The translations under genes and the position numbers were made by a program. A DNA stretch of 23,289 bases from a virus. Positions 1,676 to 11,463 of this stretch are shown here, piece by piece. The stretch is taken from positions 1-23,289 of the IMG/VR virus record IMGVR_UViG_3300032093_000868; one strand, 5' to 3'. How positions within the stretch are numbered: position 1 is the stretch's first letter; every line of letters begins with the position of its first letter. The notes below the pieces were generated by a model, which was given only the letters and a program-made list of their open reading frames with translations, was not told the origin of the DNA and made no database searches.

Positions 1676-1689
1676 AATTCTAATTTAGA

Positions 1690-1756
1690 ATGATGTGTAG
1701 GATTCGAACCCACATCAGCTACAATAGAGCCGTTTTTCCATTTAAACTAACATCAT
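1690..1756 (-). tRNA. tRNA-like element, short, anticodon uncertain
   Basis: On the minus strand the ends form a perfect 7-bp acceptor stem (1750-1756 with 1690-1696), followed by TA at positions 8-9, a weak D-arm containing AAATGGA, and a convincing T-arm (GTGGG TTCGAAT CCTAC, one G.U pair). The best anticodon stem is CGGCT/AGCTG, with 7-nt loop CTATTGT: this gives anticodon AUU (Asn) with an atypical G at 37. Read by loop context, UGU (Thr) is possible but leaves no stem. At 67 nt, with a 2-nt variable region, it is shorter than normal tRNAs and no CCA is encoded, so it may be degenerate or a tRNA mimic. Confidence 0.55.
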
Positions 1757-7320: not shown

Positions 7321-7345
7321 AGTGTAAAATTTAAGTGATTGTTGA

Positions 7346-7499: not shown

Positions 7500-7512
7500 T
7501 TTAAGTGTTTAT
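7500..7512 (-). promoter_or_regulatory. Leader element copy (5'-UTR of 7489 gene)
   Basis: On the minus strand ATAAACACTTAAA, ending 10 nt before the ATG at 7489. An identical 13-mer lies 10 nt before the ATG at 9701, and its exact complement occurs in the candidate small RNA (8146-8158). Confidence 0.6.
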
Positions 7513-8074: not shown

Positions 8075-8086
8075 AAGAGTTAAGTG

Positions 8087-8116
8087 TTGACTTTTGTTTT
8101 TATGACTTTATATTTG
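8087..8116 (+). promoter_or_regulatory. Consensus promoter for candidate small RNA
   Basis: TTG (8087-8089), 19-nt spacer, TATATTTG (8109-8116) on the + strand, a textbook Bacteroidetes promoter with the same extended TTGACTTTTG as the two leftward promoters. It points away from the leftward genes and no + strand gene follows; start of transcription expected near 8122. Confidence 0.75.
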
Positions 8117-8120
8117 CAGC

Positions 8121-8156
8121 GTGTATATTTAAGTGTTTGTGTATATTTAAGTGTTT
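8121..8156. repeat. Perfect tandem duplication, 2 x 18 bp
   Basis: GTGTATATTTAAGTGTTT repeated without any change at 8121-8138 and 8139-8156. Each contains TTTAAGTGTTT, the complement of the early-gene leader element. Confidence 0.9.
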
Positions 8157-8196
8157 ATAGCTAAGCCCCCCCAAACGAGAGGGGGCTTAACTTTTT
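8122..8196 (+). ncRNA. Candidate antisense small RNA with tandem 18-nt units
   Basis: About 75 nt between a consensus promoter and a hairpin plus T5 terminator, with no reading frame of note. The 5' half is two perfect copies of GTGTATATTTAAGTGTTT (8121-8138, 8139-8156); the 3' half is the terminator hairpin. The sequence TTTAAGTGTTTAT at 8146-8158 is the exact complement of the leader element found 10 nt before the start codons at 9701 and 7489; the first unit pairs over 11 nt. It could therefore pair in trans with those mRNA leaders and alter translation or stability. Existence and targets are inferred from sequence only. Confidence 0.5.
8162..8196 (+). terminator. Intrinsic terminator (possibly bidirectional)
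   Basis: 9-bp stem TAAGCCCCC / GGGGGCTTA (8162-8170 and 8181-8189) with a 10-nt loop, then CTTTTT on the + strand (T5 at 8192-8196). No T-run follows on the minus strand, so it best ends the + strand transcript; it may also slow leftward transcription from the 8210-8455 gene. Confidence 0.75.
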
Positions 8197-9711: not shown

Positions 9712-9724
9712 TTTAAGTGTTTAT
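9712..9724 (-). promoter_or_regulatory. Leader element copy (5'-UTR of DUF932 gene)
   Basis: Minus strand ATAAACACTTAAA, ending 10 nt before the ATG at 9701; identical in sequence and spacing to the element before the 7489 gene and complementary to 8146-8158 of the candidate small RNA. Confidence 0.6.
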
Positions 9725-9744: not shown

Positions 9745-9776
9745 CAAATATATATGCGCCGATTTGCAAAAGTCAA
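9745..9776 (-). promoter_or_regulatory. Bacteroidetes-type promoter for DUF932 transcription unit
   Basis: Minus strand TTG (9774-9776), 21-nt spacer, TATATTTG (9745-9752); extended -33 TTGACTTTTG as at 7530-7561. Predicted start about 9738, leader of about 37 nt. Confidence 0.75.
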
Positions 9777-10034
9777 GAAAAAAATGAAAAAAAAGCAAAC
9801 TTTTTTGTACTTGGTTGATTTTCAATGAATTCATCATGTACGTCATAGGTGTGTTTGTATATATGCGCTCATGTACGCACGCGAATTTCAATAGCACGCT
9901 CATGTGTGAAATTCAACAACCCCCTCATAGGTACGGGCGTAAAAAAAAAAAATTTTTTTTTGATTTTCATTTTTCACTTCATGCCTCATGGGCGTTTTTC
10001 ACGTACCCCCTCATAGGCGTTTTCGGGAGCGCAA

Positions 10035-10175
10035 ATGTGCGGGTATGTATGCACGATTGCACACAGGTGTATACACATACCCACGCGCCCACGTGCACAT
10101 GCCCACATGCATACGCGCATGTGTACACCCGCACCCGTGCACATACGCACGCACGCACGTACGTACGCACACAAC
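10035..10175. repeat. Alternating purine-pyrimidine (CA/TG/CG) tract
   Basis: About 140 bp dominated by GTATGCAC, ACACATAC, GTGCACATG, ACGCACGCACGTACGTACGC and similar steps. Such sequence can adopt left-handed (Z) DNA. Strikingly different from the AT-rich surroundings. Confidence 0.7.
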
Positions 10176-10219
10176 GCAAAGAGCAACCCAGAAACGAGCC
10201 AACCAACCACCACCGATTG

Positions 10220-10251
10220 AAACACCCAGGAGGGGAAAAACACCCAGGAGG
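10220..10251. repeat. 14-bp direct repeat
   Basis: AACACCCAGGAGGG appears twice, separated by a few A/G bases. Followed by two related CACCCCAGAAA motifs. Function unknown. Confidence 0.6.
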
Positions 10252-10410
10252 GAAGCACCCCAGAAACGCACCACAACCGCACGTTGATACACCCCAGAAA
10301 GCAAGCCCAAACGGGCCAAAAAACGCACGCCAGTAAAAAAAAATTAGGGGTTTAAATTACTGAAAGTAAATAAGTTACTAAAAAAGTTTAGGCTAAAGTG
10401 AATTTTTTTC

Positions 10411-10440
10411 TTGCTTTTGTGTTTTTCTCAATTATCTTTG
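10411..10440 (+). promoter_or_regulatory. Bacteroidetes-type promoter for rightward operon
   Basis: TTG (10411-10413), 19-nt spacer, TATCTTTG (10433-10440). Start of transcription predicted near 10446, exactly where a stem-loop begins. Drives 10488-12752. Confidence 0.75.
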
Positions 10441-10464: not shown

Positions 10465-10487
10465 TATAAACACAAAAACACAACACA

Positions 10488-11438: not shown

Positions 11439-11463
11439 TAATAACCCATAAACACCAAACACA

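Follow-up and report, generated by a model that had tools for sequence, protein, structure and literature searches.

Between two leftward genes of a phage genome, on the opposite strand, sits a promoter that has no gene to serve. What would be made from it, and what would the product do? The window, meaning the whole stretch of 23,289 bases analysed here, belongs to a tailed phage: it has recognisable genes for the tape measure, both terminase subunits (large and small) and RecT. Its weak matches are to Bacteroides and Riemerella phages. Together with the TANNTTTG promoters, these matches point to Bacteroidota as the host group. The early operons of the window diverge: the leftward one starts near 9776, the rightward one near 10440.

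Positions 8087-8196 are predicted to be the gene of an untranslated small RNA, about 75-80 nt long. The reading of this RNA as antisense to a leader tag common to many genes of both early operons is well supported. It most likely would pair with these tags and repress the translation of the early genes together.

Two features of the early regions can be noted on their own. The stretch 9985-10330, between the divergent early promoters, is of low complexity and G/C- and CA-rich (CACGCACGTGCACAT...); it is a possible origin region. The early operon of the closest relative also holds a MazG-like nucleotide pyrophosphohydrolase (L077:12173-12544).

Anatomy of the small-RNA gene

The locus is made up of the following parts:

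8087..8116, + strand: small-RNA promoter TTG-N19-TATATTTG (TTG 8087-8089, 19 nt, TATATTTG 8109-8116)
8121..8138, + strand: unit 1, GTGTATATTTAAGTGTTT, 18 nt
8139..8156, + strand: unit 2, 18 nt, identical to unit 1
8159..8196, + strand: strong intrinsic terminator, hairpin and T5

A sequence-only reading had described this promoter, the two identical 18-nt units, the hairpin with T5 and the lack of a close + strand gene, and all of these are present. There is no open frame, and no nearby + strand gene downstream that uses the promoter at 8087-8116. The 5’ end of the RNA would lie about at the start of unit 1. The terminator arms (8159-8170 and 8181-8192) are 12 nt each and 92% complementary, and the T-run spans 8192-8196.

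The body of the RNA is UUUAAGUGUUUGUGUAUAUUUAAGUGUUUAU and its core is UUUAAGUGUUUAU. Unit 2 and the next two bases contain TTTAAGTGTTTAT (8146-8158), which is the antisense of the leader tag. The 3’ part of unit 1 and the start of unit 2 form GTGTTTGTGT, the antisense of ACACAAACAC. Units 1 and 2 can also form a hairpin with each other in the window, a point against the antisense reading; such a body hairpin was rejected as a functional part because the fold is not conserved.

An Rfam search at gathering score leaves the small-RNA region unmatched, and returns one tRNA model only in the whole window. That match scores 43 bits at 1689-1756 (-), where ARAGORN reports none.

Conservation in related phages

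Relatives were sought with a blind scan for a Bacteroidota promoter followed by a terminator within 125 nt, which has no knowledge of the units. The scan recovers the RNA gene in 8 virus records, the window and seven others. As G003 and G004 are identical at this locus, these make up 7 distinct sequences. The distance from the -7 box to the T-run is 71-75 nt in all 8 records, and the gene is always opposite the early operon. TTG-N19/20-TATATTTG is present in 7/7 distinct homologues, with the promoter boxes kept in each and a varying spacer. This conservation of promoter, body and terminator supports a discrete small-RNA gene. The earlier claim that the RNA and its targets share a promoter type is supported as well.

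The hairpin and T-run are on the + side in all homologues, and changes in the stem affect both arms. L010, the closest relative, is 93% identical around the RNA region. It retains both promoter boxes, the entire unit 2 and the terminator, with an altered promoter spacer and unit 1, and one base lost from each arm of the terminator stem. In L054, the stem is rebuilt from different pairs. The 13-nt core and the promoter boxes are unchanged while spacer and flanks vary, and the blocks invariant across the 7 distinct sequences are TATATTTGC, TGTTTGTGT, TTTAAGT and much of the terminator. The gene downstream changes between phages; the RNA gene stays.

One unit has decayed in five relatives (L011, L016, L017, L018 and L019), so perfect duplication is not essential. 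Two perfect units are peculiar to the window. The antisense body proposed by the sequence-only reading survives this comparison; two perfect units as a general layout do not.

Terminators of the type AAGCCCCTCAAACGTGAGGGG-T6 end genes in other phages, which supports the terminator reading of this locus. A covariance model finds all eight records at 60-110 bits, as expected, since it was built from the same eight. Run on 395 Bacteroidota genomes, it gives one weak match, in which the core is missing and which resembles any ordinary terminator. Other searches were equally bare. A pattern of two TTTAAGTGTTT units in viral contigs yields unrelated repeats only, and promoter-plus-unit matches in genome contigs are chance-like, with neither terminator nor second unit. 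Searching by terminator sequence finds ordinary gene-end terminators only in other phages. A nucleotide search of named phages gives no match, and a DUF932 search in genome contigs finds no relative.

The same phages carry a second conserved small-RNA-like gene, at L077:18050 (+), L079:17306 (+), L084:15455 (+), L087:9271 (-) and L090:6788 (-). It consists of TTGAT-N19-TATATTTG, 59-74 nt and a terminator GCCTCACTAACGAGTGGGGC with a T-run, opposite to the flanking late-side genes, and in L084 there is an apparent tandem duplication. No clear targets among the leaders emerge for it.

Leader tags and predicted targets

The leader tag is AUAAACACUUAAA, with variants such as ACACAAACAC. Many early genes, in the leftward operon as well as the rightward one, have it ahead of their AUG, usually at about -23 to -13 from the start codon. 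The shorter AACACTTAA, the complement of the RNA core, has 14 copies outside the RNA gene, in G000, G001, G002 and G007. All 14 are on the sense strand and no more than 35 nt ahead of a predicted gene start, in a class of stretches that makes up 2.7% of the sequence. A binomial calculation gives 1e-22 for this placement, which is overstated because G000 and G001 share some leaders. The orientation is fixed: leaders have the sense form and the RNA has the antisense, 14 to 0. A simple decoy would need the sense tag and the RNA holds the antisense, so the decoy idea was rejected.

In the window, the elements are as follows:

9712..9724, - strand: tag ATAAACACTTAAA of the DUF932 gene (ATG 9701), 13-nt complement
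7500..7512, - strand: tag ATAAACACTTAAA of a 47-aa gene (ATG 7489), 13-nt complement
7329..7337, - strand: element CACTTAAAT of a 183-aa gene (ATG 7320), 9-nt complement, predicted -12.0 kcal/mol
8080..8088, - strand: element AACACTTAA of a 78-aa gene (ATG 8074), 9-nt match, overlapping the small-RNA promoter on the other strand
10465..10487, + strand: leader TATAAACAC...ACACAACAC of the first rightward-operon gene (ATG 10488), 9-nt match, strongest predicted interaction at -16.3 kcal/mol
11447..11463, + strand: leader CATAAACACCAAACACA of a 65-aa gene (ATG 11464), predicted -13.3 kcal/mol

The leaders of 9701 and 7489 had been proposed as the targets, and TTTAAGTGTTTAT of unit 2 is indeed an exact 13-nt complement in both, while unit 1 matches 11 nt. 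For 37 start regions, interaction energies were predicted in a way that also counts folding within each molecule. The order is 10488, 11464, 7320, 9701, 7489, 8455 and 11682, so that both proposed targets are among the top seven. These seven range from -16.3 to -8.0, with a median of -2.3 for start regions; intragenic stretches lie at -2.6 plus or minus 2.2. The top-ranked interactions span both divergent operons, which means leaders of both are predicted to be involved. The two predicted targets hold up and their number was too low: the leaders of 10488, 11464, 7320 and 8455 also match the small RNA. In G007, seven leaders on the early strand have a match of at least 10 nt.

Several early genes have a short G/C-rich hairpin, for example GGGCGGGTTGAAATATACCCGCC, immediately ahead of tag and ATG: at L019:2523, L011:886 and 1188, and G009:5002.

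Controls for chance and composition

The RNA is U/G-rich and the leaders are A-rich, which leads to much non-specific pairing. Shuffled RNAs produce 0.5-4.8 9-nt matches per phage owing to the AT-rich composition. Matches of the window RNA go beyond this. When RNA bodies are shuffled with dinucleotides preserved, the longest match to the 37 window leaders reaches 13 nt in 0.7% of shuffles, and there are five window leaders with at least 9 nt of match in 0.8%. For the longest exact match of own RNA to own leaders, p is at most 0.04 in 5/7 phages.

Leader counts at a fixed energy threshold are dominated by composition and show no excess over shuffled RNAs. This threshold was replaced by a control in which each leader is compared with its own shuffles. 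For the six best window leaders, the real RNA then beats 60/60 shuffled RNAs. Over the seven phages, 0, 1, 5, 4, 11, 1 and 0 of 60 shuffles are equally good: the real RNA beats all or nearly all of them in G000, G001, G006 and G007, and less clearly so in G002, G003 and G005. By these measures, the predicted RNA is complementary to phage translation start regions beyond chance.

The tag might also have been a general Bacteroidota leader. In 395 Bacteroidota genomes it occurs before ATG at background level (99 with any match, and similar numbers for reversed-pattern controls), so this was rejected and the tag is taken as a phage feature.

Relatives that lack the RNA gene

G010 and G011 (L091 and L092) have a RecT that is 91% identical to that of the window. 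They have neither the RNA gene nor the tag, and their leader is TTTAATCCTATG. Their leaders have no 10-nt match to 6/7 RNAs, and one to the seventh.

Two other relatives are exceptions that count against the antisense reading. In G008 and G009 (L088 and L089), leaders carry AAACCCTTTTAAA, plus the tag in two or three of them; in G009, AAACCCTT, from the AAACCCTTTTAAA tag, has 7/13 of its occurrences in leaders. An RNA gene with the same promoter was not found in these two. There is a weaker candidate in a 3’ UTR, where a rightward gene ends: G009 23,876-23,959, which is L090:3876-3959 (covariance model, E 0.0013), with its G008 counterpart at L088:17536-17619. It contains TTTAAGTTTAAGTGTTTAT before a different terminator. 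The G009 candidate is complementary to its own 7320-orthologue leader along 19 nt, one of them mismatched, and pairs with it better than all the other RNAs compared. This stretch could be the regulator in a relocated form, now part of a 3’ UTR, or the match could be due to chance.

Covariation of RNA and leaders

If RNA and leaders pair, changes in one should be found in the other. The RNA of G003, G005 and G006 has lost TTTAAGTGTTTAT and kept GTGTTTGTGT, and the leaders of these phages carry ACACAAACAC, which pairs with GTGTTTGTGT. Here ACAAACAC has 7/13 of its occurrences in leaders. The pattern holds by block: ATAAACACTTAAA leaders go with RNAs that have TTTAAGTGTTTAT, and ACACAAACAC leaders with RNAs that do not. 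The 7320-orthologue leader differs between G003 (AAACTTACACAA) and G005 (AAACTTAAAA), and both versions match the RNA of their own phage. In G002, GACTATAAACAC before gene 3519 is a 12-nt match to the phage’s own RNA, including bases absent from the window RNA.

Exact-match counts are in favour of own pairs at some lengths, with p values of 0.010, 0.054, 0.19, 0.015 and 0.0024 for 9 to 13 nt; like the other p values of this section, these are indicative only, because the phages are related and not independent. By raw duplex energy on one orthologous leader (7320), the own RNA is not the best partner (permutation p 0.33). Once row and column means are removed, three measures give 0.024, 0.085 and 0.011, with the G009 candidate included. 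The sequence-only reading had named covariation beforehand as a check, and the outcome is weak and mixed: the blocks agree, the raw energy does not. Covariation is present but modest, and can be called suggestive.

Interpretation

The host RNA polymerase would transcribe the RNA rightwards from TTG-N19-TATATTTG, and the intrinsic terminator would end the transcript. The body would then pair with the tag, about 13-25 nt before the AUG of early genes. Initiation in Flavobacterium does without Shine-Dalgarno pairing, and in F. johnsoniae it needs an A at -12/-13 and no structure from -20 to +20 (PMC6847099). Since the tag occupies this A-rich, unstructured initiation zone, pairing is expected to stop 30S binding. 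Because its promoter is of the same type as those of its targets, the RNA would accumulate with the early mRNAs and then shut them down. What the sequences show directly is the anatomy of the gene, its conservation, the leader tag and the complementarity between the two; expression, pairing in the cell, repression and timing, and with them the feedback control suggested by the sequence-only reading, are inferences.

The 8 records, several of which are about 40 kb and some of which are fragments, yielded no integrase or resolvase and no recombinase of the tyrosine or serine type. As no integrase was found, timing in lytic growth is probably the role of the RNA, rather than immunity, and lysogenic use is unlikely.

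How else could the locus be read? The other strand might be the functional one, with the hairpin and the two tags belonging to the 8074 leader and the + promoter being fortuitous. The region does lie upstream of this leftward gene, and the order of hairpin, tag and ATG is found elsewhere on the gene strand, at the L019, L011 and G009 sites given above. But the units are 47-80 nt from the 8074 ATG, far from where tags mostly are (about -23 to -13), and 8074 has its own tag. The T-run follows the hairpin on the + side only, the promoter is invariant, and the RNA gene stays where the downstream gene differs, all of which makes this reading quite improbable. A protein regulator would also give short repeats close to promoters and start codons: the tag would be an operator or the site of a RegA-like repressor, and the units further sites, not antisense. 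T4 RegA has such sites beside the AUG in about 30 early leaders (PMC3014915), and early operons of several relatives contain a small HTH protein. Against this, the element is without symmetry, is also found in short intercistronic gaps away from promoters (for example the G003 leader 21759), and lies within the transcribed body of the RNA locus, between promoter and terminator. Its fixed orientation does not fit a protein site either, and such a site is held to be quite improbable too.

The direction of the effect is another matter, as sequence alone cannot give it. The RNA might pair and then activate or protect leaders, target mainly host mRNAs, or act in cis on the antisense operon transcript, given that the mRNA of the leftward operon would run through the RNA gene on the opposite strand, giving a perfect duplex of 75 nt. 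The tag however is immediately upstream of the AUG, a place at which pairing as a rule prevents initiation, and it is not enriched before ATG in the Bacteroidota genomes covered, which need not include the true host. This family of readings is considered unlikely. Least credible by far is pure chance, with a fortuitous match beside a terminator in AT-rich intergenic DNA: composition does make 9-nt matches common, but conservation in 8 records, terminator changes in both arms and 14/14 leader placement contradict it.

Joint repression of the early genes by the small RNA is the preferred reading, with fairly high confidence. It can be taken further, with slightly more belief than doubt: one small RNA may be the global translational switch of a virulent phage, with the tag as the address on many early genes of two divergent operons. 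This would be an RNA counterpart of RegA, for host ribosomes that work without Shine-Dalgarno pairing.

If true, one RNA and a common leader tag would provide compact timing of early gene expression. It would also be an easy system in which to study the block of initiation by small RNAs in Bacteroidota, whose A-rich leader positions take the place of Shine-Dalgarno sequences. The sequence gives precise predictions for this: both ends of the RNA, its core of 13 nt and the set of leaders that have a tag.

Comparison with known systems

T4 RegA works in a similar way: a single regulator stops the translation of about 30 mRNAs through A/U-rich sequence that includes their AUG or lies immediately ahead of it (PMC3014915). 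RegA is a protein, whereas the window regulator would be RNA.

Small antisense RNAs of phages are not new. According to the available part of a review on them (PMC12197685), most characterised ones have one named target each, and none described there has a tag common to many phage genes. The lambda OOP RNA is likewise small, 77 nt, with its own promoter (PMC12197685), but it is a cis antisense on cII, where the matches of the window RNA are short and in trans. Lambda PreS and VpdS of VP882 are trans-acting phage small RNAs (PMC12197685) that differ in being Hfq-dependent, in having host mRNAs or small RNAs among their targets, and in their phages and hosts.

The P22 sar RNA, as that part of the review has it, is phage-encoded, acts in trans, measures 68/69 nt and blocks translation initiation of a phage mRNA (PMC12197685). 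It has a single target, ant, in a temperate phage of an enterobacterial host, unlike the many tagged leaders of the window RNA and a phage in which no integrase was found. The c4 RNA pairs through two short complementary stretches. In P1 and P7 this antisense RNA pairs around a phage ribosome-binding site (PMC12197685), which means that an earlier statement that no phage regulator of this layout had been described went too far. c4 targets ant and needs its folded structure, whereas the window RNA comes with a promoter and a terminator of its own, lacks a conserved body fold and an Rfam match, and has many predicted targets. It is a well-supported prediction that the window RNA belongs with the trans-acting antisense RNAs of phages, and that tag-sharing across many genes sets it apart from them.
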